DNA from: Thiopseudomonas denitrificans
Lineage (GTDB): Bacteria > Pseudomonadota > Gammaproteobacteria > Pseudomonadales > Pseudomonadaceae
Direction of reading: 5' to 3'
Assembly (NCBI RefSeq): GCF_002866065.1
Contig: NZ_LNJZ01000003.1
Location: 138,667-202,666 of the forward strand
DNA: 64,000 nucleotides
The notes under the pieces were generated by a model. That model saw only the letters and a program-made list of their open reading frames with translations, ran no database searches and had not been told where the DNA came from. A program made the translations under genes and the position numbers. Shown one piece after another: positions 10,468 through 24,603 of this stretch (positions are counted from its first letter, which is position 1; every line of letters starts with the position of its first letter).

Positions 10468-10673
10468 TGGGCTCCTTGTGCGGCAGGTGCTCTGCTTGCC
10501 GCTTTGCTTCTTCTGTTCGCCTGCACCTTGTGCCGTTTTGATGGTGCATGAAATACCGGGCCGCCTCTGGCTTGGTCGCTTGAGTTTGGCTGCTTCCCGG
10601 ATGCGCGCTGCACTGAGCGTCGCATGACAGGCCTGCATCAGCAAGATTCCCCTAAAGAAAGAGTAAATTGAAT

Positions 10674-10695
10674 ATCTGTGATGCAGGTCACAGAT
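10674..10695. promoter_or_regulatory. CRP/Vfr-type operator upstream of pelA
   Basis: ATCTGTGA-N6-TCACAGAT is a perfect 8-bp-arm palindrome containing TGTGA-N6-TCACA, the consensus of CRP and its Pseudomonas homologue Vfr. It lies about 285 bp upstream of the pelA start. The match is exact; which protein uses it is inferred. Confidence 0.7.
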
Positions 10696-10746
10696 TATGG
10701 CCAAATAGCATTAACTGTCAGCAGAAAAAGAGAGTAGAGTTATTTT

Positions 10747-10777
10747 GACACTACAGGAAGCAAAACTCCTGAGTGTC
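10747..10777. other. Bulged inverted repeat upstream of pelA
   Basis: GACACT-A-CAGGA and TCCTG-AGTGTC pair over 11 bp with one bulged A and an 8-nt loop. Its right arm overlaps the FleQ-like box by three bases. It could be an operator for a dimeric protein or a leader-RNA hairpin; without a mapped transcription start I cannot choose. Confidence 0.45.
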
Positions 10778-10788
10778 GCAAATTTGAC
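10775..10788 (+). promoter_or_regulatory. FleQ-like box upstream of pelA
   Basis: GTCGCAAATTTGAC fits the FleQ consensus GTCaNTAAAtTGAC in its outer GTC...TGAC and most of the AT core. FleQ represses or activates pel depending on c-di-GMP in P. aeruginosa. The site is about 190 bp from the pelA start codon. The assignment is by motif and context. Confidence 0.5.
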
Positions 10789-10978
10789 GTTCCGGGAAAT
10801 GTTCGCCAGTGGCGGACTCTTCCGTGAAACAGGCTGCTCACTGCTTCATTCATTTCAAGAACAGCTGTCATCAAGGTTCGCCAGGTAGTTTTGGGGAGAT
10901 TTGATGGAGGACAGGATGTCCATGCAGGGACGCTGTACAGAACATGTAAGTACCATTGCTTGAAGCAGGGTTATCAAA

Positions 10979-13738
10979 ATGAATGTGTGGTGTTCGTTCG
11001 GCACGCTGTGCCGGCTCGTGCTTGCCTGTCTGGCCGTCTTGCTGCCCACTGCAGCGCAGGCGCAGCCTGTGACCTCCAGCCTTGGCGATATCGCCTTCTA
11101 TTACGGCAATGACTTGCCGCTCGATGAGCTGCGGGCCTTTGATACCGTGGTCATCGACCCGGAACGGGTGGCCTTGCCGGACCTTTCCGGTACTCCGCGA
11201 ACTCGCTGGTTTGCCCGCGTAACCGTGCGCGCTGCGCACTGGCGACAGCACAAGGGCCAGGTTGACCGCTATGTTGCCGAACATGTGCAGCCGCTGGTGC
11301 AGGCAGGCTATCAGGGATTGTTGCTGGACGACCAGGGCGAACTCGCCGACAGCAGTCCGGACCGCATCCGGATGATGACCACGCTGGTGGACGAACTTGC
11401 TACCCGTTATCCGGGGCTGCCCCTGCTGGTGCGCAACCATGCGGACGTGGCGGAACAGCGGGCAGCCAGGCTATCGGGAGCGGTATTCGATTCTCTCTAT
11501 CACGGACGCCGCACATTTGGCGGCCTGATGGCGCGTGTGCCGGTCAAGGTGCGTGAGGCCGGGCTGGCGCGAGCCAGACAGCTGCAGGAGCAGCACGGGC
11601 TGACAGTGGTTGCCATCGACTATTGTGTCCCGGGCGACAGGACATGTCGTCAGCAACAGGCGCAGCAACTGCTGGCTGACGGTTTGCTGCCATACGTGAC
11701 CACGCCTGCTCTGGATGGCATAGGGCAGGGGCGTATCGAAGTCATGCCGCGCAAGGTTTTGCTGCTGCAGCTGCTGGAGCAGGGTCAGCCGCTGGATGAG
11801 ACCTTTGGTGTACTCAACCTGGCCATGCCGCTCAATTACCTGGGCTATGACATTGAATACGCTGACCTGCGCGATCCGCTGCCGTTGGGTATCACCAATG
11901 ACCGTTATGCCGGCATTGTGCTGGTTGGCAGCCTGGAGGTGCAAAACCCGCTGGCCTTGCAGAGCTGGTTGTTGCAGCGCATCGAGCAGGGGCTGAAGGT
12001 TGCCGTTTTCAATGATTTCGGCTTTGCCCTGAACATGCAGAATGGTCCTGCGCTGGATCTGGAATTCGTACCCGAGCAGCGGGTATTACTGGACAGGAAG
12101 CCTGAAATCCTGCTGCAGGATGAGCTGCTGGCCTTTGAGGTGGCGGTAAATCCTGATATCCGGGATGCGCTGGGTGTGCGCGTTGGCAGCCATAGCAAAC
12201 CGCTGCTGCGGCTGCAAAGTGATGATCATGTCTATGATGCGGCAGCCATTACGCCCTGGGGCGGTTTTGTCGTGGACAACAACACTGTGGTCTACCTGGA
12301 CAGCCTTGAGCAGCAACGCTGGGTCATTGATCCGATGCGCTTCCTGCAACAGGCGCTGCGACTGCCACAAATACCGGTCCCGGATGTCACCACCGAAAAT
12401 GGTCACCGCCTGTTCTTTACCCACGTTGATGGTGACGGTTTCCTGTCTTATGACGAGCTCAGCCACACTGGCGAGCGTCAGCAGTTCTGCAGTGCCATCC
12501 TCAAGGACCAGGTGTTCAAGCGTTATCCGGTACCCATGAGCATGTCGGTGATTGAAGCCGAGATGACCGAAATGGACAAGCGGGCCCGTCCGGAGCTGGA
12601 GCGCATTGCGCGCGGCATTTTTGCCCTGCCCAATGTCGAGCTGGCCAGCCATACCTATTCGCACCCCTACTTCTGGTCACATGTTGATCCGGATACCGGC
12701 ATCAAACTGGGCCCGGAGGAGCTGGGCGAGTGGTATACCGCAGGCACGTCATCGCTGGATATTCCCGGTTACGGGTTTGATATCGACAGGGAGATATCCG
12801 GCAGTATTGACTACATCAATCGTGAGCTGGCTCCGCCCGGCAAGCAGGTCAAGGCGATTTTCTGGTCGGGCGATGCCATTCCGCCACGTATCGGTTTACA
12901 GAAGGCCGCCGCAGCCGGAGTGCTGAACATCAATGCCGGTAACACCACCATTACCCGTTCCAGCAACACCTGGACCCAGATTGGCCCCTATGGCGTGGCC
13001 AAGGGCAAGACGGATGACGAGTACCAGGTGTATGCGGCGGTCATGAATGAAAACGTCTATACCAATGACTGGACCGGACCGTTTTATGGCTTCCGTCGGG
13101 CGCAGGAGACCTTTGAACTGACGGACCGGCCATTGCGTATCAAGCCGATCAACATCTATTACCACTCGTATTCGGCGTCCAAGCCGTCTTCCCTGAAAGC
13201 CCTGCACAGCCTGTTTGAATACAGCCTGGGCCAGGATGTATTGCCGATCTACACCACTGAATATATCCGGCGGGTGCTGGACTGGCGGCATGTGGTGGTG
13301 GCACGGACCGGGGATGGCTGGAAAGTGCGTAGTGGCCAGCATCTGCGGCAGTTGCGCTGGCCAGGACAGGGGGTTCCCGAACTGGCCACTGCCAGCGGCA
13401 TCACCGGCTATCTGCCCGGCCCGGGCGGACTCTATGTACACATGGCCGGTGATGAAGCCAGTTTCCGTATCGGTAGCGAACACAGTCGCGGGGTACCGCG
13501 CATCAGCCAGGCATCCGGTTTTGTCCGCAATGTGCAACGTGATGGCAACAGCCTGCAGTTCGATTTTGGCGGTTACTACCGTCCGCAGGTCCGGCTGGAA
13601 GAAGCCGGCCAGTGCCGGGTCCGGGTTGATGGCAAGCCGGTGCGACCGGTGGTGCAGGGCCGGTCGCTCCAGGTGCCGGTAGCAGGCAAGGCAGGACAGC
13701 AGGTGGATTACCACAAGGTACAGGTGGATTGTGAATAG
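10979..13738 (+). CDS. pelA: Pel polysaccharide deacetylase/hydrolase, hydrolase domain apparently degenerate
   Basis: Periplasmic protein of 919 aa with a signal peptide (cleavage near AQA, about residue 28). In the Pel system PelA deacetylates the GalNAc/GalN polymer and carries an N-terminal GH166-type hydrolase domain. The deacetylase domain looks intact: FTHVDGDGF with D484 and D486, and SHTYSHPYFW with H558 and H562. The hydrolase domain (about 35-250) does not. Where the paralogous lipoprotein at 23.7 kb has VSVGE, LNRGF and AFESLY, PelA has VTVRA (81-85), LVRNH (150-154) and VFDSLY (D171 in place of the Glu). It is also about 26 residues shorter before GLLLD (D117). This PelA is therefore probably deacetylase-only. 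Its last eight bases overlap pelB. Confidence 0.93.
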   Translation: MNVWCSFGTLCRLVLACLAVLLPTAAQAQPVTSSLGDIAFYYGNDLPLDELRAFDTVVIDPERVALPDLSGTPRTRWFARVTVRAAHWRQHKGQVDRYVAEHVQPLVQAGYQGLLLDDQGELADSSPDRIRMMTTLVDELATRYPGLPLLVRNHADVAEQRAARLSGAVFDSLYHGRRTFGGLMARVPVKVREAGLARARQLQEQHGLTVVAIDYCVPGDRTCRQQQAQQLLADGLLPYVTTPALDGIGQGRIEVMPRKVLLLQLLEQGQPLDETFGVLNLAMPLNYLGYDIEYADLRDPLPLGITNDRYAGIVLVGSLEVQNPLALQSWLLQRIEQGLKVAVFNDFGFALNMQNGPALDLEFVPEQRVLLDRKPEILLQDELLAFEVAVNPDIRDALGVRVGSHSKPLLRLQSDDHVYDAAAITPWGGFVVDNNTVVYLDSLEQQRWVIDPMRFLQQALRLPQIPVPDVTTENGHRLFFTHVDGDGFLSYDELSHTGERQQFCSAILKDQVFKRYPVPMSMSVIEAEMTEMDKRARPELERIARGIFALPNVELASHTYSHPYFWSHVDPDTGIKLGPEELGEWYTAGTSSLDIPGYGFDIDREISGSIDYINRELAPPGKQVKAIFWSGDAIPPRIGLQKAAAAGVLNINAGNTTITRSSNTWTQIGPYGVAKGKTDDEYQVYAAVMNENVYTNDWTGPFYGFRRAQETFELTDRPLRIKPINIYYHSYSASKPSSLKALHSLFEYSLGQDVLPIYTTEYIRRVLDWRHVVVARTGDGWKVRSGQHLRQLRWPGQGVPELATASGITGYLPGPGGLYVHMAGDEASFRIGSEHSRGVPRISQASGFVRNVQRDGNSLQFDFGGYYRPQVRLEEAGQCRVRVDGKPVRPVVQGRSLQVPVAGKAGQQVDYHKVQVDCE

Positions 13739-16700
13739 TCGACGCGAACAGTTAAGTCCTTTTGCCGTGGTACTGCTGCTGGGAGCGGTGGTACTGGTTG
13801 CCCTGGTGGCCGCTTTCCAGCATGACAGTTACCAGGATGACTACTATGACAACGAGCCGGCCTCCGAACTGACGGTGTCCTACCTGGAGGCATGGTTGCG
13901 TGTGCAGCCGGACTCCGTGCCCAGGCTGATGCTGCTTGGCGAGCAATACCTGAAGCTGAATCGCAGGGAGCAGGCGCTGGCGTTGGCAGGGCATATAGAG
14001 CAGCTTGACTCGGCTGATGAGGAAACGAAAAGGCAGGCACTGTATCTGCGTGTCAATGTCGCCCAGCAGCGGGCTTATGAACTGGATGTGCAGGACGAGC
14101 GCCGCCCGGAACGCATGGCGGTATTGCGCAGCGAGCTTGAACAGGCAACAGCCTATGCCTGGGCTCCGGCTCGCCAGGCGGCGTTGTCGGAAATGGCCTG
14201 GGCTGCCGGAGCCTACGACGTGGCTCTGCATTTTTATCGCCAGCTGGCCGGCAGTGATGCAGACAATGCGCTGGACTGGCACCAGCGTGCGGCAGAACTG
14301 GCGTTTGCCAGGCAGGAGTATGAGGAAGCTGCCGATAGCCTGTTTGCAGCGGTTGATCTTTCTGCCGAACTGCCACAAAAGCGGGAGCTTTTTCTGCGGG
14401 CACTGCAGGTACTTGAGTCGGGTGACCGGGCGGCACTGGCCTGTGAGCTGGCCGAGCAGCATATGACCGGGCTGGAGAATGATCGCCAGGTCATCATTTA
14501 TATGCTCAACCTGGCCCGCATGGCCAACCGTGGCGATTTGGTCGACAAATACGCCCGCCTGCTGGCCAGCCTGCTGGAGTTGAGCAGTAATGAACCTGTT
14601 GCCCCGGCTACGGGATGGTTGGCGCGGACCTACAGCCTGCCGGCCAGTGCTGCACGTGCCTTGCTGGCAGCACCGGCACGCTGGACGCATGCGGCCGCTG
14701 GTGCTGTCCGCTCCACTGACGCTTACCGCGGGCTGCAGGCCGGGCTCAGGGTTGCCGGCTGGCTGAGCGGCCGGCCGTTTGTAGCGGTTGCCAACGAACA
14801 GGTTGCTGTCGCGGAGCCGGCGATGCAGCCGGCAGAAACTCCGGTTACCGACAACGATTACGATCTGCTGTATCAGGTGTATGTGGAAAGCGGCAGCCTG
14901 ACCAAGGCCCGGGATATTGCCAAAAAAGCCCTGGCCAGGGGCATGCCCGCCCGGATCTGGGAGCCGCGCCTGGCCCAGGTGGCAGAGTGGGGGGGTGAGC
15001 CCGGGCTGGCATTGCAAGCATGGAGCCGCCATGCCGGGCTGACGGGTTCGGCAGAATCCTGGAGCCATGTGCGGCGTTTGAGCATCGGTCTGAATGATGA
15101 CGCACGCTACCTGCAGGCATTGCAGTTCGACATACGCAATACTCCGAACAATGCTGCGCTGTATGACGAGCTGGTGCTGGCCTATGAACGGCTGGGCGAG
15201 CCCGAGCGTGCCATGCAGTTCCTGCAGACGCAGGTCTCGGGTTCGCGCAGTACGGTGCTGTTGGGCCGTTATGCCGAACTGGCCGAGCGGGCCGGCCATG
15301 ACCAGCGGGCAGAAGAGCTCTATCATCGCCTGTGGCAGGTCGACACGGCCAGCAGGGCGCAGCATGTCACTGGTGTGGCACGCTTGCGCTACAAACAGGG
15401 CAAGGACGAAAGTGCCCTGCAGCTGATGCGCGAGCAGGCTGATTCGACAGCCGAAGCTGCTGATACGGCAGATTACTGGCGGCTTTATGCCGAGCTTGGC
15501 CGCCTGCTGCAAAGCAGCGAGGATACCAGTCGTGCCTATCGCAGTTTGCTGGCTACCGGCCAGGCAACTTCGGCAGATCTGGCCGGCATGACCTACTTCT
15601 TTCTGAACTCGCCCATGGATGCTGCCCGCATTGCGGAGATGAACCTGCAGCAGGGGGTCGATCCGCAGCGGGCAGTGGAAGCAGCTTTGCTCAACTATGC
15701 CGAACTCAGGGCCTGGAGCCGGGTTGGTGAAATCATGCGCGGGCTGAGCGGAGCTCAGCGTACGGGTTTTCAGCGTTCGGCCGCTGCCCTGATGGTCAAG
15801 GGCCGTTACCACCTCTATTTGCATCAGTGGAACGAAGCGGTAGCCAGCTTCCGTGATGCGGTGAACGCGGCGCCGGCCAGTGATGATGCAAGGATTTCCT
15901 ATTTGTGGGTGCTGGTTGAATACGGTACCGAAGCGGAGCTGCGCCAGCGCTTGTATCAATGGCGCCGGCTGGTCCGTCTGAATGCTGACTATCGTGAGGT
16001 GTTTGCCGCTGCGTATTTGCGCCTGGGGCAGACGGCACGTGCAATCCGGTTGATGCGCATGCAGCCGCCAGAGGTGACAAAAGACCCGCTATGGATCATG
16101 TCACTGGCCGATGCAGAGCAGCAGGGGGGCCATGATGAACTGGCCCAGCGTCTGTATCGCAACGCCTGGCGCGAACTGCATGCCAGGTTGCAGGGAGTGA
16201 ATGATGTGGCGGGTGCGCCGGTACCGGCGGATGTTCAGCTGGACTGGTGGCAGGCGCGTGGCGTTCTGGCCCAGCGGTTGCGTAATGCGGAAGTCACCAG
16301 TCGTGCCCTCAATCAGCTTTATGTACAGGATATGCGCCTGTCTGCCCCCGGTGTGCGCTATCAGTCACGCCTGGGTGACGTCAGCGGGATGCGTACGGCA
16401 GCCGAAGTCAGCGATGACGTGGCGGAGCAGGGCGTCAGCCCGTACAGCCTGCTGGCCGGTATCGGTATTTCGCTGGAACAGGAAGCCAATGACCGGGCGC
16501 GGATACTGCTCCGGCATCCGGCCGTGCGTGATTTGCCGGCCAGCGCCGACTATCAGATGAGCCTGGCACTGGCAGAGTCCGATACGACGGCTGCTGCCGA
16601 GCTGCTCGATTTGCGTCAGGGGCGCATCGCCTACTACAGCCAGGTTGCCGCACTGGGCGCCAACCGGCGTACCAGTGAGCAGGAAACCCTGCTGTTTGAG

Positions 16701-17696
16701 GGGCTGGACGTGACGCCGGGTGGTGATGCCATCCATGAGGACCTGACCCAGGTGATCTGGCCGGACAAGTCTGCGCTGGGTGTCAGTATGGGCCTGTGGC
16801 GCAGCGAAGCCATCAGCACTCACGAGCTGGACATGTTTGCCAGGCTCAAGCTGACCAACAGATACGGCATCACGCTACACGGCATCACCCGTCAGCAGAA
16901 AACCAGGCGCAAGCAGGATATCGTCTGGGTACCGTCAACGGATCGCGAGTACGAGCTCAGCATCCACGACCGCACGGTGGAGCATGATTTCACCCTGACG
17001 CTGGGCCAGCGCGACGGGTTCAGGTCCTTCGCCACCGGACGGATCTTTGCCGAGGTCAACCGGCACGGCACCTGGGTGCCATCGGCCACCCTGGGCTGGC
17101 GCCAGTACACCAGCCTGTCACCCTACCTGCAGGTTGCCGGCTATAAAAACATGCTGGACTTCGCCCTGTCGTGGCAGCCGGAAGACTCGCGCTGGTTTGC
17201 CAGCGCAAACGCCGAAGTGGCACGTTTCTACACGCAAAAGCATGATGCCATAGCCAGGGGGACCGAGTTCAACCAGGAGCTGGGCTACCGCATCTACCAT
17301 GCCTATCCGGACTGGAACGTACGGCTGGTGGCTGGCCAGGGCAATTACTCGGCCAGAGGCAAGAACAGGACGCACTCTGCCCTGACCCGCATGAACCCGG
17401 ACGGGGTGGCGCCTGCCAACAGCGAGCTGGTACCTGAGAACTTCCGCCGTTACGGCATCATGACCGGCTTTGGCAACAACGATGTAACCACGCGCAAGAG
17501 CTCCTGGAAGCCGTTTCTTGATGCAGGTTACATCCGTGACAACAAGAACGGCCACGGCCCGGCGTTCAGTGCCGGAATCGGCGGTCCGGTACTGGGTGGT
17601 GACCACCTGGTTCTGCAATATCTGCACGAAGCAACCGGTGCGCGTAACCGCCAGCGCACCAGCCAACTGCTTCTTTCCTACTATCTGAATTTCTAG
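13731..17696 (+). CDS. pelB: Pel export protein: TPR scaffold plus outer-membrane beta-barrel
   Basis: The outer-membrane exporter of Pel, 1321 aa against about 1190 in P. aeruginosa. A single N-terminal hydrophobic segment (SPFAVVLLLGAVVLVALVAAF) is followed by a long periplasmic alpha-helical region of TPR-type repeats (about 45-1000) that in the family holds PelA. The last roughly 300 residues are rich in alternating strands (LDMFARLKLTNRYGITLHGI and similar) and end in SYYLNF with a terminal Phe, typical of a porin-like barrel. The start is GTG at 13731, overlapping the pelA stop. The extra length lies in the helical region, so the scaffold has more repeats than the characterised protein. 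Confidence 0.92.
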   Translation: MNSRREQLSPFAVVLLLGAVVLVALVAAFQHDSYQDDYYDNEPASELTVSYLEAWLRVQPDSVPRLMLLGEQYLKLNRREQALALAGHIEQLDSADEETKRQALYLRVNVAQQRAYELDVQDERRPERMAVLRSELEQATAYAWAPARQAALSEMAWAAGAYDVALHFYRQLAGSDADNALDWHQRAAELAFARQEYEEAADSLFAAVDLSAELPQKRELFLRALQVLESGDRAALACELAEQHMTGLENDRQVIIYMLNLARMANRGDLVDKYARLLASLLELSSNEPVAPATGWLARTYSLPASAARALLAAPARWTHAAAGAVRSTDAYRGLQAGLRVAGWLSGRPFVAVANEQVAVAEPAMQPAETPVTDNDYDLLYQVYVESGSLTKARDIAKKALARGMPARIWEPRLAQVAEWGGEPGLALQAWSRHAGLTGSAESWSHVRRLSIGLNDDARYLQALQFDIRNTPNNAALYDELVLAYERLGEPERAMQFLQTQVSGSRSTVLLGRYAELAERAGHDQRAEELYHRLWQVDTASRAQHVTGVARLRYKQGKDESALQLMREQADSTAEAADTADYWRLYAELGRLLQSSEDTSRAYRSLLATGQATSADLAGMTYFFLNSPMDAARIAEMNLQQGVDPQRAVEAALLNYAELRAWSRVGEIMRGLSGAQRTGFQRSAAALMVKGRYHLYLHQWNEAVASFRDAVNAAPASDDARISYLWVLVEYGTEAELRQRLYQWRRLVRLNADYREVFAAAYLRLGQTARAIRLMRMQPPEVTKDPLWIMSLADAEQQGGHDELAQRLYRNAWRELHARLQGVNDVAGAPVPADVQLDWWQARGVLAQRLRNAEVTSRALNQLYVQDMRLSAPGVRYQSRLGDVSGMRTAAEVSDDVAEQGVSPYSLLAGIGISLEQEANDRARILLRHPAVRDLPASADYQMSLALAESDTTAAAELLDLRQGRIAYYSQVAALGANRRTSEQETLLFEGLDVTPGGDAIHEDLTQVIWPDKSALGVSMGLWRSEAISTHELDMFARLKLTNRYGITLHGITRQQKTRRKQDIVWVPSTDREYELSIHDRTVEHDFTLTLGQRDGFRSFATGRIFAEVNRHGTWVPSATLGWRQYTSLSPYLQVAGYKNMLDFALSWQPEDSRWFASANAEVARFYTQKHDAIARGTEFNQELGYRIYHAYPDWNVRLVAGQGNYSARGKNRTHSALTRMNPDGVAPANSELVPENFRRYGIMTGFGNNDVTTRKSSWKPFLDAGYIRDNKNGHGPAFSAGIGGPVLGGDHLVLQYLHEATGARNRQRTSQLLLSYYLNF

Positions 17697-17744
17697 CACA
17701 ACGCTTGAATGTATCCAGCTGTTCAAGAAAAACGGGAGAGCATC

Positions 17745-18278
17745 ATGAAACGTAAAATCATTTCTCGGGGCGTGGCCCTTGCCGTGCTGACCGGGCTGAG
17801 CGCCTGCTCGACACTGGACGTCGGGAAAAACCCGCGTCTGGACGACCTGACCAGCATTGCCGTCGTGCCGATGGTCAACTACACCGAAACCCCGGATGCC
17901 GGCCAGCGGGCCACCAGCATTGCCCAGAGCATCCTGCACCAGAAAGGTTTCACCGGGCTGTTTACCTATCAGCAGGAGCGTACCGGCAACGTGCTGATCA
18001 TGGACTCGGTCGAGCTGTCGGCTGCCGAGGGTCTCAAATGGGCGCGCAACACCGGCGCCAGCTATGCCCTGACCGGTGCCGTGGAAGAGTGGCGTTACAA
18101 GGTTGGTGTCGATGGCGAACCGGTGGCCGGGCTGACCTTCAACCTGGTTGACCTCAACAGCGGGAAAACCGTCTGGAGTGCCACCGGCAGCCGCAGCGGC
18201 TGGAGCCGTTCCGGTGTCTCCGGTGTCAGCCAGAAGCTGACCAACCAGCTGCTGGCACCATTGTCACCATCAAGATAA
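17745..18278 (+). CDS. pelC: Pel outer-membrane lipoprotein
   Basis: A 177-aa lipoprotein. The signal peptide ends in the lipobox LSAC (Cys at residue 20), without an Asp at +2, so sorting to the outer membrane is expected. In the family PelC forms a ring under the PelB barrel and guides the cationic polymer. The ALTGAVEEWRYKVG and TFNLVDLNSGKTVWSA strands are the conserved core. The start is the ATG at 17745, preceded by GGGAGAG; an upstream in-frame start at 17709 would hide the signal peptide. Confidence 0.9.
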   Translation: MKRKIISRGVALAVLTGLSACSTLDVGKNPRLDDLTSIAVVPMVNYTETPDAGQRATSIAQSILHQKGFTGLFTYQQERTGNVLIMDSVELSAAEGLKWARNTGASYALTGAVEEWRYKVGVDGEPVAGLTFNLVDLNSGKTVWSATGSRSGWSRSGVSGVSQKLTNQLLAPLSPSR

Positions 18279-18288
18279 GGAGTGCGTC

Positions 18289-19674
18289 ATGCAACCGGAA
18301 TCTTACGCGCCGGCACAGCCCCGGCGCACTACGGACGTGACACGTAGCGTCTGGCGACTTGGCCGGTTGCTGGCGCCTTCGGTCAAGTGGCCGGTGACCA
18401 TACTGGAAACATTGCTGGGCACCCTGCTGGTTGTGGGCTTCTGTTACTGGCTCAGGCCGGCAGATCCGTTGCTGACGGGGGCCGGTTTCCCGTGGATCTG
18501 GCTGGTACCGCTGGTGTTCGCGCTGCGTTACGGCAGCCTGTCGGGCCTGTTTTCCGGCATGCTGTTGCTGGGGGTCTGGTTCATGGTCATGGCTCCGGCT
18601 CCGGCTCCGGCTCCGGGCGGGGTGTTTCCGACCCTGTTCTTTGTCGGCGGTTTTCTGCTGACCATTGTTGCCGGTTACTTCAGCGATATCTGGTCAACAC
18701 GGATCAAGCACATGCAGGGGGTCAACGATTATGTCAGTGACCGCCTGTCGGTGCTGACCAGCAATCATTACCTGTTGCGCGTCTCCCATGAGCGCCTGGA
18801 GCAGGAGCTGCTGGCCCAGCCGTTCACGCTCCGGGATGCGGTGGGCTTTCTGCAAAGACAATCTGCGGTGCAGGGCATGGATGAGGCACTGCCGAACATG
18901 TCCAGCGTGCTGGAGTTCGTTGCCCTCAACTGCCAGCTGGAAACGGCTTCGGTTTACGCCGTGACCGGCGGACAACTTTCTGCGCAAGCGGTTGCCTCGA
19001 TTGGCAATGGCTGCCGGCTAAACCCGGACGACCCGATGCTGCGCGAGACGCTGGAACACAGGATGCTGGTCCACCTGCAGGAGCTGGATAGCCGGGAAAG
19101 CGAGTATCTGGCATGTGTGCCGATGAAGAACTCGCGGGACGAGCTCAGGGGTGTGCTGCTGATCCAGCGCATGCCTTTCCTGGCAGTGAGCAAGGACAAC
19201 CTGCAGTTGCTGATGACATTGCTTGGTTATTACATCAACGGGCTGGAAAGTGCCCACCTGATCGGCAGGGTGCAGCAGCATGTGCCGGGCTGTCCTGCTC
19301 CGGTCGCACTGGAGCTGGCACGTCTGGCGCAGTTGCAGTTCGAGACCGGTGTGCGCTCATCATTGCTGGTCATGGCGTTTCCGGCCAGTGGCGTGGCCGA
19401 GTCGCTCCATGACGAGATGGTGCGCCAGCAGCGATTGATGGACATGCTGTGGACTTTTTCCACTGAACGGGCGCGAATTGCAGTGATGCTGCTGCCGCTG
19501 GCCGGTAACAAGGGGGTGGACGGTTACCTGATGCGGCTGGATGACATCCTGATGCGGCAGTTCAATACCGGACTGGCCGGTGCGGGGGTCGCGGTACACG
19601 CTGCTCATATTGACAATAACCAGCCGGGAGAAGCCCTGGCCGGATTGCTGCGACGGTGTGAAGATCATGGTTAG
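18289..19674 (+). CDS. pelD: Pel inner-membrane c-di-GMP receptor
   Basis: Binds c-di-GMP and switches on Pel synthesis. The 461-aa protein has about four N-terminal transmembrane helices (40-135), a coiled linker, a GAF domain (about 175-320) and a degenerate GGDEF domain (about 325-461). The GGDEF motif itself is lost, as in all PelD, but the inhibitory-site motif RxxD is kept as RLMD (R382-D385), the residues that bind the dinucleotide in the family. An Ala-Pro run (APAPAPAPGG, from a GCTCCG hexanucleotide repeat) lies between two membrane helices. The gene follows pelC by 10 bp and overlaps pelE by 8 bp. Confidence 0.92.
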   Translation: MQPESYAPAQPRRTTDVTRSVWRLGRLLAPSVKWPVTILETLLGTLLVVGFCYWLRPADPLLTGAGFPWIWLVPLVFALRYGSLSGLFSGMLLLGVWFMVMAPAPAPAPGGVFPTLFFVGGFLLTIVAGYFSDIWSTRIKHMQGVNDYVSDRLSVLTSNHYLLRVSHERLEQELLAQPFTLRDAVGFLQRQSAVQGMDEALPNMSSVLEFVALNCQLETASVYAVTGGQLSAQAVASIGNGCRLNPDDPMLRETLEHRMLVHLQELDSRESEYLACVPMKNSRDELRGVLLIQRMPFLAVSKDNLQLLMTLLGYYINGLESAHLIGRVQQHVPGCPAPVALELARLAQLQFETGVRSSLLVMAFPASGVAESLHDEMVRQQRLMDMLWTFSTERARIAVMLLPLAGNKGVDGYLMRLDDILMRQFNTGLAGAGVAVHAAHIDNNQPGEALAGLLRRCEDHG

Positions 19675-20677
19675 GGCAATTTTTCTTGTCGCATTCTCGC
19701 TGCTGGCCATCCTGTTGCAGGTGGCGGCCATCATGGCACTGCGCGGCGCCGTTAGCGGCCTGGACCCGATGCTGGCGTTCCTGGCCTTGCAGGTGCTGGC
19801 ATCGCTGTCCCTGGTGCTGGTTGCCGGACCGGTGATCATGCGTCATTACCACCGGACCACAGGCTGGCTGTACCTGTATGTGTTTGTCGGCTGCCTGTTC
19901 ATGCCGGTGGTCGGGATGCTGGTGTTCTTCCTGTTGTGGCTGATGATCGCGTTGCTGGGCTACAGCTTTGTTCCGCTGGCTTCGGCCAACCGGATCGAGC
20001 CTCCCGGTTTTGTTGCCAGGCTGGTCCGGGGCATGGTCTATGGCGGCGGTACCCGGATCAGGGCGCGACTGGAAAATCCCGATAGCAGCGACAGTGATCG
20101 CATGGCCGCGATGACGGCCTTGCAGTCCATGCCGATCCACCTGACCGAGGAAGTGTTGCGCAACCTGTTGAGCGACCAAAAGGAAGAGCTGCGGCTGCTG
20201 GCCTATGGCCTGATGGACAGTGCCGAAAAAGGCATCATGGAGGAAATCGCCAGGACCCAGCAGAAGCTTGAGAAAAATGGCCTGGCCGGAAAGGAGGAGG
20301 GCTACCTGCATGCCCGGATGGCTCAGCTGTACTGGGAGCTGATCTATCAGCGGCTGGTTGCCGGTGATGTGTATCAGTATGTACTGGACAGGGTCATGGA
20401 GCATGCCCGTTTTGCTGTCAGCATTGACGAGGAAGAGGGGCAGATGTGGTACCTGCTGGCGCGCTGCTCTCTGCTCAGGAAACAACCGGAACAGGCTGCC
20501 CATTACCTCGGGCATGCTGCCAGACATGACTTCCCGCGTGAGCGCTTGTTGCCCTGGCAGGCCGAAGCGGCTTTCCTGCAGCGCAATTTCACCGATGTGC
20601 GCCGCCATCTGGCCAGCGTCGATTACAGCCTTGCAGCCGCCCAGCTGCAGCCCGGCATACGATTTTGGACGACATGA
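19667..20677 (+). CDS. pelE: Pel inner-membrane protein E
   Basis: A 336-aa protein with an N-terminal membrane part (about three helices: FLVAFSLLAILLQVAAIM, FLALQVLASLSLVLVAG and LYVFVGCLFMPVVGMLVFFLLW) and a C-terminal cytosolic helical domain with TPR-like repeats (about 130-336). In the family PelE interacts with PelD, PelF and PelG in the synthase complex. The start at 19667 overlaps the pelD stop. The frame is open 29 codons further upstream, but those only read pelD sequence in another frame. Confidence 0.88.
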   Translation: MVRAIFLVAFSLLAILLQVAAIMALRGAVSGLDPMLAFLALQVLASLSLVLVAGPVIMRHYHRTTGWLYLYVFVGCLFMPVVGMLVFFLLWLMIALLGYSFVPLASANRIEPPGFVARLVRGMVYGGGTRIRARLENPDSSDSDRMAAMTALQSMPIHLTEEVLRNLLSDQKEELRLLAYGLMDSAEKGIMEEIARTQQKLEKNGLAGKEEGYLHARMAQLYWELIYQRLVAGDVYQYVLDRVMEHARFAVSIDEEEGQMWYLLARCSLLRKQPEQAAHYLGHAARHDFPRERLLPWQAEAAFLQRNFTDVRRHLASVDYSLAAAQLQPGIRFWTT

Positions 20678-22212
20678 ATATGTTACAGCGAAAAGCCGAC
20701 ATGGTTGACGTGATGTTTCTGCTGGAGGGAACCTTTCCCTATGTTTACGGCGGGGTCTCGGCATGGGTCAACCAGATGATCAGGACCTTTCCCGACACCA
20801 GTTTCGGGATAGTATTTCTGGGTGGACGCAAACAGGATTATGCCGAGCCCCGCTATGAGCTGCCCGACAATGTCCTGCATTTCGAGGCACATTACATTCA
20901 TGAACAGGGTGCGGCGGTCGAGATCAGGGGCAGCAAGGGTGACCGCAAGGCATTTGCCAGCGTGGCCGACCTGCATGACCGTTTGCGCAGCGGGGACAGT
21001 CTGGATGATATCGGCGGCCTGATCCGTACCGTGCTGCCGATGATGAAGAAGGGCGGCAAACTGGACGAGCAGCAGTTTCTGCACAGCGAGGAGTCGTGGA
21101 AGCTGATCACCAACCGCTATGAGGAATACTCCACCGACCCGTCGTTCACCGATTATTTCTGGACCGTACGCATCATGCACAAGCCCTTGTGGCAGCTGGC
21201 CGAGCTGGCCATGAGCGTTCCCAAGGCCAGGGTTTACCATACGGTTTCCACCGGCTATGCCGGGTTCCTCGGGGCCTTGCTGCATTACCGGAGCGGTAGC
21301 CCGTTGCTGGTGTCCGAGCACGGCATCTACACCAAGGAGCGCAAGATCGACTTGTTGCAAAGCCGCTGGATTCAGGACAATCGCAGTATTTTCGAGAAAG
21401 ATATCTCTCGCTCCGGTTATTTCCAGGAGTTGTGGGTGCGGTTTTTCGAGAAGATGGGCCTGATGTGTTACCAGGCCGCAACCGAGATTGTTGCCCTGTA
21501 TGAGGGTAACCGTCAGCGGCAGATTGCCGACGGGGCGCCAGCGGAAAAAACCCGCTGCATTCCCAACGGTATTGATGTCGAGCGGCTGGCCGTGTTGCGC
21601 GAACAGCGGGAGCCCGGTATTCCGGCCGTGGTCGGCCTGATCGGCCGGGTGGTACCGATCAAGGATGTGAAAACCTTTATCCGCACCCTGTTTGTCGCGA
21701 AAAAGGAACTGCCTGACATTGAAGGCTGGATCATCGGCCCGGAAACCGAAGACCCGGCCTATGCGCGGGAATGCCACGAGCTGGTGGTGAGCCTGGGCAT
21801 GCAGGACAGCGTGCGTTTTCTAGGTTTTTGCCGTATCGAGGATGTCCTGCCCAAGCTTGGGTTGCTGGCGCTCAGCTCGATCAGTGAGGCGTTGCCGCTG
21901 GTCGTGCTGGAGGCCTTTGCCGCCGGTGTACCGGTCATCACCACCGATGTCGGCTCCTGCCGTCAGCTGCTCGAAGGCGGCAATGATGAAGACCGCGCCC
22001 TGGGCGCTGCCGGTGCCGTGGTGCCGATTGCCAGCCCGGAAGCCATGTCGGCTGCCATGGTTGAGCTGCTGACCGACAGTTTACGCTGGCGTGCGGCACA
22101 GCAGGCGGGCATTGCACGGGTCGAGCGGTTTTATCGCGACAGCCTGATACTGCAGGAATACTGCGAACTCTATCAGCAGCTGCTGGCACAAAGCCCGGAG
22201 CAGCCTGCCTGA
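20674..22212 (+). CDS. pelF: Pel glycosyltransferase (GT4)
   Basis: Cytosolic glycosyltransferase that polymerises the Pel chain from UDP-sugar. The protein is 512 aa. N-terminal blocks LLEGTFPYVYGGVSAWV and VSEHGIYTKERKIDL are specific to PelF. The GT-B C-terminal lobe has VGLIGRVVPIKDVKTFI and the EX7E-type nucleotide site SEALPLVVLEAFAAGVPVIT. I place the start at the ATG at 20674, whose ATGA overlaps the pelE stop; a TTG nine bases upstream and an ATG at 20680 are alternatives. Confidence 0.93.
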   Translation: MNMLQRKADMVDVMFLLEGTFPYVYGGVSAWVNQMIRTFPDTSFGIVFLGGRKQDYAEPRYELPDNVLHFEAHYIHEQGAAVEIRGSKGDRKAFASVADLHDRLRSGDSLDDIGGLIRTVLPMMKKGGKLDEQQFLHSEESWKLITNRYEEYSTDPSFTDYFWTVRIMHKPLWQLAELAMSVPKARVYHTVSTGYAGFLGALLHYRSGSPLLVSEHGIYTKERKIDLLQSRWIQDNRSIFEKDISRSGYFQELWVRFFEKMGLMCYQAATEIVALYEGNRQRQIADGAPAEKTRCIPNGIDVERLAVLREQREPGIPAVVGLIGRVVPIKDVKTFIRTLFVAKKELPDIEGWIIGPETEDPAYARECHELVVSLGMQDSVRFLGFCRIEDVLPKLGLLALSSISEALPLVVLEAFAAGVPVITTDVGSCRQLLEGGNDEDRALGAAGAVVPIASPEAMSAAMVELLTDSLRWRAAQQAGIARVERFYRDSLILQEYCELYQQLLAQSPEQPA

Positions 22213-22272
22213 CCCGCAGGCCCAAGACTATCGATATCCGGCATGACCGCCGGATCAGCAGGAGAATCAACA

Positions 22273-23658
22273 ATGGCCGGCTTGCACCTGCAATTGCAGA
22301 AGATATTGAGCAGAGACAGTTTCAGCAGCACCTTGTGGGCCTACATGTATGCGGGTATCAACAGCGCAGGGCCGCTGATCCTGTCCATTCTCGGGATTCT
22401 TGTCCTTGGCGGCATCAGCCTCTGGGCGGTCGACCGGCCGGTACATATCATCCAGTTCTATGTGTCCGTCACCTACCTGTTCGCCTGCAGCCTGGTGATT
22501 ACCGGTGCCGTGCAGCTGTATTTTACCCGCTATATTTCCGACCGGCTGTTTGACCGCTGTCAGGAGTGCATCCTGCCCAGTTTCAATGCTATCTGCCTGG
22601 TCACCACGGCCGTCACCGGCAGCCTTGGCCTGATACTGGCCTTCACCCTGTTCCGGCATGAGTCGGCGTTGTACCGCATGCTGATGCTGTCGGGATTTGT
22701 CATCCTCAGCAACATCTGGATCGGTGTCACCTTTCTGGCCAGCATCAAGCGCTATGGCACCATCATCAAGGGGTTCGTATTGGGCTATGCGGTGGTGCTG
22801 CTGGTCGCTTACATCCTGGCGGGCAAAGGCCTGAACGGTCTGCTGGCGGGCTTTGTCACCGGGCATTTTGTCCTGCTGCTGTTCCTGGCCCTGCTGATCC
22901 ACCGCGATTACGACTCGGAAACCTACATCTCGGCGGACATCTTTGACCGCAAGGCGTCCTATCCGGTCCTGATTCTGGTCGGCCTGTTTTTCAACGCGGG
23001 CGTCTGGGCGGACAAGTTCATGTTCTGGTTTTCCGAGGCGGGCCACCAGGTGATAGGCCCGCTACATGCCTCGGTGATTTACGATATTCCGGTATTCATT
23101 GCCTACCTGTGCATCATCCCGGGCATGGCAGTGCTGCTGCTGCGGGTGGAGACCGAGTTCATCCAGAAATATGACGCTTTCTATCATGCGGTACGCCAGG
23201 GCGGTGCTCTGGGCGAGATCCGCATGTGGCGCAACGACATGGTACTGGCCGCACGCAGCTGCATTTACGACATCTTCAAGGTACAGGCAATGGTGGTGCT
23301 GCTGATTTTCGCCTTCGGCGACAAGCTGCTCAATGCCATTGGCGTCTCCAGCCTGTATTTCCCGATGCTGAAGGTGGACGTGATCGGCGTCAGCCTGCAG
23401 ATGGTCCTGCTGGGGATCCTCAACTTCATGTTCTATCTGGACAAGCGCCGGCATGCCCTGCTGCTGACATTCCTGTTCATGTTTCTCAACATTGTCCTGA
23501 CCCGGGTTTCGCTGGAGCTGGGCCCGGCCTATTACGGTTACGGCTTCGGCGGTGCCTTGCTGCTGGATGTGCTGCTCGGCATGTTCCTGCTCAATGGCCG
23601 TTTCGAGCAGCTGGAGTACGAGGTGTACATGCTGCAAGACAACGCCGGCACGGCCTGA
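22273..23658 (+). CDS. pelG: Pel inner-membrane transporter of the polysaccharide-flippase type
   Basis: A 461-aa protein with about twelve transmembrane helices, the membrane component of the Pel synthase. The conserved N-terminus (LQKILSRDSFSSTLWAYMY) and the NAGVWADKFMFWFS helix are family marks. It is preceded by AGGAGAATCAACA, which fixes the start at 22273 rather than the open upstream codons. In the P. aeruginosa arrangement pelG is the last gene; here another gene starts five bases after its stop. Confidence 0.93.
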   Translation: MAGLHLQLQKILSRDSFSSTLWAYMYAGINSAGPLILSILGILVLGGISLWAVDRPVHIIQFYVSVTYLFACSLVITGAVQLYFTRYISDRLFDRCQECILPSFNAICLVTTAVTGSLGLILAFTLFRHESALYRMLMLSGFVILSNIWIGVTFLASIKRYGTIIKGFVLGYAVVLLVAYILAGKGLNGLLAGFVTGHFVLLLFLALLIHRDYDSETYISADIFDRKASYPVLILVGLFFNAGVWADKFMFWFSEAGHQVIGPLHASVIYDIPVFIAYLCIIPGMAVLLLRVETEFIQKYDAFYHAVRQGGALGEIRMWRNDMVLAARSCIYDIFKVQAMVVLLIFAFGDKLLNAIGVSSLYFPMLKVDVIGVSLQMVLLGILNFMFYLDKRRHALLLTFLFMFLNIVLTRVSLELGPAYYGYGFGGALLLDVLLGMFLLNGRFEQLEYEVYMLQDNAGTA

Positions 23659-23663
23659 GCGTC

Positions 23664-24530
23664 ATGAGTCTGGCCTTGTTCAAGTTTCTCGCCGGCAGTG
23701 CCCTGATCGCACTGGCGCTGGGCGGCTGCGTTTACCGCATGGCACAGCAAGAGCCTGCCGATACGGCGTCTGCGTTGCACAGTATTGCCTTCTACTATGG
23801 TGACCGCCCCGACTGGACAATGCTGGACAGCTATCAGATGGCAGTTCTGGAGCCAGAGCACGATTTTGACCTGTCAGGACGCGCCAACACGCAGTGGCTG
23901 GCCTATGTGAGTGTCGGCGAGGCACTGGAAAGCCGGGCGTATTATGCCGATATCCCGCAAGAACTGATCCTCGACCGCAACAGGATCTGGCGCTCCATGG
24001 TGATTGATGTCGCCCGCCCCGAATGGGCTGATTTTCTGCTGGAAAAAGTCTTCACGCCGATTGTCGAACAGGGCTATCAGGGTTTCTTTCTGGATACCCT
24101 GGATTCCTACCAGCTGGTGCATGGAAGCGGGGCGCGTGGCAATGCCAGTCGTGCCGGTCTGCAGCAGCTGATCCACCGTCTGAAACAGCGGTGGCCTGAG
24201 CACCATATCATCCTGAATCGTGGCTTCGAGCTGTTTCCTGCTGTGGCCGAAGATGTGTTCGCTCTGGCGTTCGAGTCCCTGTATCAGGGCTGGGACGAAG
24301 CGGCCGGCGAGTATGTCGAGGTATCACACAGGGACCGGGAATGGCTGTCGGCACAGGTCGGACATGCCCTGCAAACCCGCAAGATTCCCGTGATTGCCAT
24401 TGATTATTGCGACCCTTCCTCTCCTGATTGTACGTTGCGCACCCTGCGCAAAATCCGCGCCCGTGGCTGGGTGCCCTTTGTCGCCGATGGCGGCCTGGTA
24501 CAGCTGAACAGCCTGTCCGCCACCCACTGA
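23664..24530 (+). CDS. Lipoprotein with PelA-type glycoside hydrolase domain (eighth pel gene)
   Basis: A 288-aa protein whose signal peptide ends in the lipobox LGGC (C22). Residues 38-285 align end to end with the hydrolase domain of PelA in the same operon: HSIAFYYGDRP versus LGDIAFYYGND, IVEQGYQGFFLDTLDS versus LVQAGYQGLLLDDQGE, and VIAIDYCDPSS versus VVAIDYCVPGD. It keeps the residues expected for an active GH114/GH166 barrel: GE at 85-86, D144, NRG at 185-187, E204 in AFESLY, and D247. It starts 5 bp after pelG. I infer a lipid-anchored endo-acting Pel hydrolase, possibly for polymer trimming or release. Substrate and membrane side are not shown by sequence. Confidence 0.85.
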   Translation: MSLALFKFLAGSALIALALGGCVYRMAQQEPADTASALHSIAFYYGDRPDWTMLDSYQMAVLEPEHDFDLSGRANTQWLAYVSVGEALESRAYYADIPQELILDRNRIWRSMVIDVARPEWADFLLEKVFTPIVEQGYQGFFLDTLDSYQLVHGSGARGNASRAGLQQLIHRLKQRWPEHHIILNRGFELFPAVAEDVFALAFESLYQGWDEAAGEYVEVSHRDREWLSAQVGHALQTRKIPVIAIDYCDPSSPDCTLRTLRKIRARGWVPFVADGGLVQLNSLSATH

Positions 24531-24547
24531 ATCCTGCCGTGTTTCGC

Positions 24548-24568
24548 GGCCGGATCTTATCTCCGGCC
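24548..24568 (+). terminator. Hairpin after the pel operon
   Basis: GGCCGGA and TCCGGCC pair around a 7-nt loop, 17 bp after the last pel-operon stop. There is no T-run behind it, so termination is possible but not clear. Confidence 0.35.
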
Positions 24569-24603
24569 TGCAGGCCCCGTGAATGCTGGTTCTCGCTCCG
24601 GTC

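Follow-up and report, generated by a model that had tools for sequence, protein, structure and literature searches.

The stretch of Thiopseudomonas denitrificans DNA analyzed here (64,000 nucleotides of contig NZ_LNJZ01000003.1, RefSeq assembly GCF_002866065.1; hereafter the window) carries a Pel exopolysaccharide operon in which pelABCDEFG (10979-23658, + strand) are complete, in order and on one strand, and in which an eighth gene follows the seventh. The product of this last gene, here called LipH, is a stand-alone hydrolase of the PelA type. Its ATG lies 5 nucleotides (nt) past the pelG stop codon (23656-23658), at the coordinates and spacing given in an earlier note on this DNA, and a scan of the pelG-LipH gap for a terminator-like site found none. 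The two genes at either end of the operon, and the parts of them that matter most, are as follows.

10979..13738, + strand: pelA, 919 amino acids (aa), with a degenerate hydrolase barrel, a mixed domain, an intact CE21-type deacetylase and a beta-rich C-terminus (phmmer match to 9CGY; AlphaFold2 model)
11078..11740, + strand: degenerate hydrolase domain of PelA (residues 34-254), catalytic positions lost (VIA against 5TCB)
11327..11329, + strand: D117 codon of pelA, the kept equivalent of Pseudomonas aeruginosa D160
11489..11491, + strand: D171 codon of pelA, replacing the catalytic E218
12398..13294, + strand: deacetylase domain of PelA (about residues 474-772), its seven key residues intact
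23664..24530, + strand: LipH gene, a stand-alone PelA-type (GH166) hydrolase and predicted lipoprotein (sequence, signal peptide, model)
24093..24095, + strand: D144 codon of the LipH gene, the D160 equivalent
24273..24275, + strand: E204 codon of the LipH gene, the equivalent of catalytic E218

The PelA of the window matches the full-length PelA 9CGY (phmmer, E 1.4e-119), and its AlphaFold2 model (predicted local distance difference test score, pLDDT, 86.5; pTM 0.89) superimposes on that structure with a VIA Z of 43.9, at 2.5 Å over 798 residues. In the model, the hydrolase part retains its barrel fold (Z 23.8, 2.5 Å, 216 residues of 5TCB, the P. aeruginosa PelA hydrolase), but the residues that mark a GH166 enzyme are largely gone from it. 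Relative to P. aeruginosa, E218 has become D171, N199-R200-G201 reads R-N-H, W224 is an arginine, and E101 is missing, with some 30 residues deleted downstream of strand beta-3; among D160, E218, GE and NRG, only D160 survives, as D117. A beta-3 insertion with a loop over the active site has been described for GH166 and GH191 (PMC12054363), and it is this insertion that the deletion appears to hit. Among fused PelA hydrolase domains of relatives, which were picked by similarity to the intact enzyme, 77 of 77 keep E218, D160 and NRG, and chance is therefore excluded as an explanation for the loss. Nor does pelA look like a frameshifted gene or pseudogene: in the assembly sequence its frame runs without a stop and the deacetylase residues are intact. 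These residues, H482, D484, D486, H558, H562, E691 and H729, correspond to P. aeruginosa H526, D528, D530, H600, H604, E723 and H761 (PMC12022489), are invariant in 73 of 73 aligned PelA proteins, and make the PelA of the window a CE21/PelA deacetylase by its residues. One could still imagine that D117 and D171 leave PelA with weak hydrolase activity, to which LipH only adds, given that the D160 equivalent is kept and that Glu to Asp is a conservative change. We consider this highly improbable, however, as PelA lacks NRG, GE and the beta-3 loop over the active site, and as position 218 in the degenerate PelA proteins of relatives can also be A, G or P.

LipH is a protein of 288 aa consisting of a signal peptide and a single domain. 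Its best match among solved structures is 5TCB (phmmer, E 1.2e-40, residues 39-278, the whole hydrolase domain), against 1.6e-4 for the GH191 protein TM1410, and its match to the PelA of its own operon is weak (27% over 129-276). The AlphaFold2 model (pLDDT 86.5) lies on 5TCB with a VIA Z of 29.9, at 2.1 Å over 245 residues; Foldseek ranks GH166, GH191 and GH114 in that order (4.6e-24, 1e-15 and 1e-10, the last for the GH114 protein Ega3), and VIA Z values of 29.9, 25.2 and 20.5 again place LipH nearest GH166 rather than GH114 or GH191. G85-E86, D144, N185-R186-G187, E204 and D247 are all present and are invariant in 22-24 stand-alone relatives; at the six hydrolase positions that we scored (E101, D160, N199, R200, G201, E218), LipH and 23 relatives keep six of six. 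Thus, LipH is predicted to be a retaining endo-alpha-1,4-N-acetylgalactosaminidase of the GH166 type. Membership in a distant GH114 clade with other substrates was considered and is ruled out by sequence, fold and tree.

Much of what the earlier note had read from the letters holds up under these comparisons. It had listed the same catalytic residues in LipH, and had PelA losing most of its own, with D171 in place of Glu and a shortening of some 26 residues before D117, which is essentially right for a deletion that we place at about 30; it had also left deacetylation or binding to PelA, the former in agreement with the seven intact residues. It had allowed that a proper alignment might restore all catalytic residues to PelA, or that LipH might belong with distant GH114 enzymes. 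The alignment restores D160 alone, the GH114 placement fails as described above, and superposition of both hydrolase domains finds the barrel fold of 5TCB in each.

We consider it very likely that this one operon divides the work of PelA between two proteins, a Pel deacetylase with a dead barrel (PelA) and a separate, active hydrolase (LipH). In such a system PelA would keep its deacetylase alongside a folded, catalytically dead barrel, and the gene after pelG would provide an active endo-alpha-1,4-N-acetylgalactosaminidase, exported separately to the periplasm. Most likely, PelA would deacetylate the chain on the PelB scaffold, and the free hydrolase would cut Pel, setting chain length and releasing the secreted form. 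In P. aeruginosa, secreted Pel of low molecular weight is a product of the PelA hydrolase, and adherent biomass goes up when this activity is lost (PMC9894940); in Bacillus cereus a separate PelAH disrupts Pel biofilms, and adherent biomass likewise goes up when it is deleted (PMC7112168). Loss of the PelA-PelB interaction in P. aeruginosa has been proposed to lower deacetylation and potentially raise hydrolysis (PMC12022489), and a separate hydrolase might remove this coupling of the two activities through PelA and PelB.

The distribution of the two genes across genomes argues for this division of labor. The six-position score is 6/6 in 37 intact fused PelA proteins and 24 stand-alone hydrolases, and 0-3 in 36 degenerate PelA proteins. 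The richest sample is a family, f230 in our set, that is probably Burkholderiaceae, because records of Paraburkholderia, Burkholderia and Cupriavidus fall among its sequences. PelA occurs in 55 of its 170 sampled genomes, and 54 remain once one too fragmentary to class (G1331) is set aside. A stand-alone intact hydrolase is present in 19 of the 19 genomes with degenerate PelA only, in none of the 21 with intact PelA only, and in none of the 13 with an intact and a second, degenerate PelA; one further genome (G1330) combines a stand-alone hydrolase with two PelA proteins, one degenerate and one intact. The stand-alone gene is thus found in 20 of 20 genomes with operon-type degenerate PelA (Fisher p 3e-15 for co-occurrence, the genomes not being independent). 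It follows pelG on the same strand in 17 of these 20, in two of them at a distance of about 1.3 kb, precedes pelA in two and is unlinked in one, so that it is linked to pel in 19/20. The gene next to pelG, whose survey the earlier note had suggested, accordingly defines a conserved operon type, and one-off decay in T. denitrificans is ruled out because degenerate PelA is common to a clade of 23. The eight-gene order recurs on a plasmid of Paraburkholderia graminis PHS1, where the last gene is annotated 'endo alpha-1,4 polygalactosaminidase', and on a Burkholderia cenocepacia replicon. In the P. graminis locus (L196 16807-19713) galE and glmS, genes for UDP-sugar precursors, come after the operon.

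The same distribution bears on the substrate. Several galactosamine polymers are substrates of the related families GH114, GH135 and GH191 (PMC12054363), and the stand-alone hydrolase might in principle target one of these polymers other than the Pel of its own operon. We regard this as improbable, since LipH groups with PelA hydrolase domains and not with the distant stand-alone clade, the gene is so consistently pel-linked, and it occurs where PelA has lost its own site.

The lipid anchor appears to be a more local matter. The LipH signal peptide ends in LGGC (C22) with Val and not Asp at +2, the pattern of an outer-membrane lipoprotein, and in T. denitrificans such an anchor would hold LipH at the outer membrane near PelC and PelB. 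By pattern, a clear lipobox is present in LipH only; two relatives (G1224, G1254) are weaker candidates, and the other stand-alone hydrolases appear to have ordinary cleavage sites. Predicted outer-membrane anchoring is therefore best seen as a local feature of LipH, and the idea of a lipid-anchored hydrolase, as first proposed, fits LipH and perhaps two others, the remaining relatives having apparently ordinary, cleavable signal peptides.

Three points weigh against a deacetylase-only PelA working with a separate hydrolase. The co-occurrence of the two genes rests on few independent evolutionary events. The change at position 218 is conservative and D160 is kept, and from sequence a trace of hydrolase activity in PelA is therefore possible. 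Finally, the lipid anchor is unconserved across the stand-alone group, and so cannot be essential to the split arrangement.

The dead barrel itself has not simply been abandoned to drift. In close pairs (NG86), the ratio of nonsynonymous to synonymous substitution rates (dN/dS) is 0.15-0.30 for the operon group's degenerate domain, 0.03-0.11 for the deacetylase part and the rest of PelA, and 0.07-0.17 for the stand-alone hydrolase; selection on the degenerate barrel is relaxed yet still constraining. Of the 36 degenerate domains, 33 have Arg for Tyr96 and all 36 carry Asp or Glu at the Asp160 position; an Arg-Asp salt bridge may fill the old pocket. The barrel might accordingly be a pseudoenzyme with a new job, binding or guiding Pel, with R80 (for Tyr96) in the former active site, an idea that would complement the division of labor proposed above. 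Purifying selection well below a dN/dS of 1, the near-uniform Arg for Tyr96, the acidic residue kept at Asp160 and a barrel modelled with high confidence are consistent with it; at the same time, selection is about 2-4 times more relaxed than on the rest of PelA in most pairs, and fusion to an essential enzyme makes folding alone a sufficient constraint, and we hold the idea only tentatively. Extending it further is equally speculative: in what would be a conserved type of Gram-negative Pel system, a hydrolase freed from PelA (free or membrane-anchored) and a polymer-handling pseudoenzyme barrel would leave cutting uncoupled from the PelA-PelB complex of deacetylation and export.

The split did not arise in T. 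denitrificans itself. In the window's own family, which includes P. aeruginosa-like PelA, 148 genomes yield 24 matching ones besides the window's, every match lying in a long frame of PelA size; an origin of the split within this family was rejected, as PelA is intact, and the extra gene absent, in its other Pel-bearing members. Order-wide, a search with the deacetylase part finds PelA in 24 of 391 genomes, all 24 also with an intact hydrolase, and the PelA of the window is the sole degenerate one. In a tree of the deacetylase part, the window's PelA falls inside the group of 23 degenerate PelA proteins (support 100), nearest G1214, G1238 and G1185 at 56% identity and apart from the PelA of its own family, and LipH likewise groups with G1214 and G1238 (support 95). 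In two congeners (G006, G037), rpiA, ilvA, the DUF2269 gene and nrdD are consecutive, with no pel genes. The DUF2269 gene and nrdD of the window instead flank the eight genes of the operon, and homology to a congener (L295) restarts at about 24603. Because the operon belongs inside a group of Burkholderia relatives and the congeners' site is empty, the simplest reading is that it was probably acquired whole, as an eight-gene block; loss of the pel genes in congeners is less likely. The remaining genes and the inserted segment are as follows.

10468..24602, strand not applicable: inserted segment (in congeners the DUF2269 gene is followed directly by nrdD)
13731..17696, + strand: pelB, TPR repeats and C-terminal beta barrel (PF13429, PF24604)
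17709..18278, + strand: pelC, outer-membrane lipoprotein, LpoB-like (blastp to PelC open reading frames (ORFs) of other pel operons; LpoB match weak and under the Pfam cut-off)
18289..19674, + strand: pelD, GGDEF receptor of cyclic di-GMP (PF16963)
19580..20677, + strand: pelE (position; blastp to PelE ORFs of relatives)
20665..22212, + strand: pelF, glycosyltransferase (NF038011, above cut-off)
22243..23658, + strand: pelG, exporter (PF16933)

Where the stand-alone gene came from is a separate matter. The stand-alone hydrolases cluster with intact hydrolase domains from the PelA proteins of other genera. In approximately unbiased (AU) tests, their grouping with the intact sister lineage of degenerate PelA (g572) is weakly rejected (p 0.023), and neither grouping with the intact PelA of g452/g568 (p 0.363) nor a single origin of all stand-alone copies (p 0.168) is rejected. 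An in-place duplicate of the hydrolase domain of the ancestral PelA, as opposed to a copy from a related PelA of another pel locus, would suit a gene that sits within the same operon and may have a single origin, but the weak rejection of g572 and the non-rejection of g452/g568 make it, in our view, doubtful. The earlier scenario of duplication followed by separation of activities is thus supported in its second half, the site being lost in PelA and present in the extra protein across the clade, and not favored in its first; the phylogeny proposed along with it places LipH among PelA hydrolases and not in the distant stand-alone clade, though not with the sister lineage of its own PelA. Degeneration itself may have happened more than once: two further degenerate groups (one genus, 12; G1318) stand beside intact PelA, the deacetylase tree has degenerate PelA in three groups and rejects a single clade (AU p 0.0002), and the hydrolase-domain tree joins these groups on long branches that make the joining doubtful.

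LipH shares its hydrolase fold and residues with P. aeruginosa PelA (GH166 + CE21; 5TCB), and the PelA of the window shares the four-domain architecture of that protein and of P. thermotolerans 9CGY; the difference is that the hydrolase site lies inside PelA in P. aeruginosa, and here is absent from PelA and found on a separate protein. The earlier note knew of no described eighth pel gene of this kind, which does not stand. Cluster 1 of Burkholderia terrae BS001, published as 'pelABCDEFGA' (PMC4122924), numbers eight genes, a pelA-like one coming after pelG, and from its gene order is very probably this operon type; the 2014 paper ascribes it to duplication and reshuffling, without residue, domain or functional analysis. 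In Gram-positive pelDEA_DAFG loci with a separate pelAH (B. cereus BCE_5582; PMC7112168), hydrolase and deacetylase are also encoded by separate genes, with the hydrolase in or beside the pel locus, but there PelA lacks any hydrolase domain, whereas here a dead barrel remains within a Gram-negative seven-gene operon. A dead-hydrolase PelA paired with a separate hydrolase was not found described in the literature searched, subscription papers lying outside the search.

Separate periplasmic hydrolases or lyases such as BcsZ and PslG are familiar from other exopolysaccharide operons. BcsZ, AlgL and PslG share with LipH the principle of a polymer-cutting enzyme as its own protein, but are unrelated enzymes with no dead copy fused to a modifying enzyme. 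Four genomes (G163, G289, G676, G830) also have two genes for the two activities, with a hydrolase gene directly upstream of a deacetylase-only PelA of about 800 aa; they differ in that the hydrolase belongs to a distant clade (28% identity) and PelA has no hydrolase domain. The loci are L097 4101-7496, L098 9194-12467, L100 6786-10132 and L103 12211-15341, each with a hydrolase gene of about 290 aa.

A 2025 study of PelA homologs reported the hydrolase and deacetylase active sites as conserved across phyla (PMC12022489), and the group described here is a clear exception. As a natural experiment it bears on the reason for the usual fusion of the two activities; it also makes Pel hydrolysis and deacetylation separable for study in Gram-negative bacteria, supplies intact, stand-alone hydrolases that might serve to disperse biofilms, and serves as a warning that a full-length pelA does not equal hydrolase activity.

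Several observations stand apart from this argument. A perfect CRP/Vfr-type palindrome, TGTGATGCAGGTCACA, lies at 10677-10692, about 290 nt 5' of pelA, and occurs once in the 64 kb window (chance expectation 0.07). In G1321 (L286) a stand-alone hydrolase sits beside pelB, with pelDEFG reversed, and the genome search found no PelA deacetylase. The second, degenerate PelA genes at L214 8576-11470 and L216 12982-15858 have no other pel gene detected nearby; they come from genomes of genus g572 in which an intact pel operon is present too. In G886 (C1 17919-24255; L114, L128-L130), PelA hydrolase matches that are almost identical occur twice, 5.6 kb apart, and the DNA separating them holds broken hydrolase-like fragments; G875 has an extra stand-alone PelA-type hydrolase (L105 9029-9943) about 370 kb from its intact pel operon. 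An Alcanivorax record and family f44 (L049, L108-L111) have PelB divided over two consecutive ORFs.

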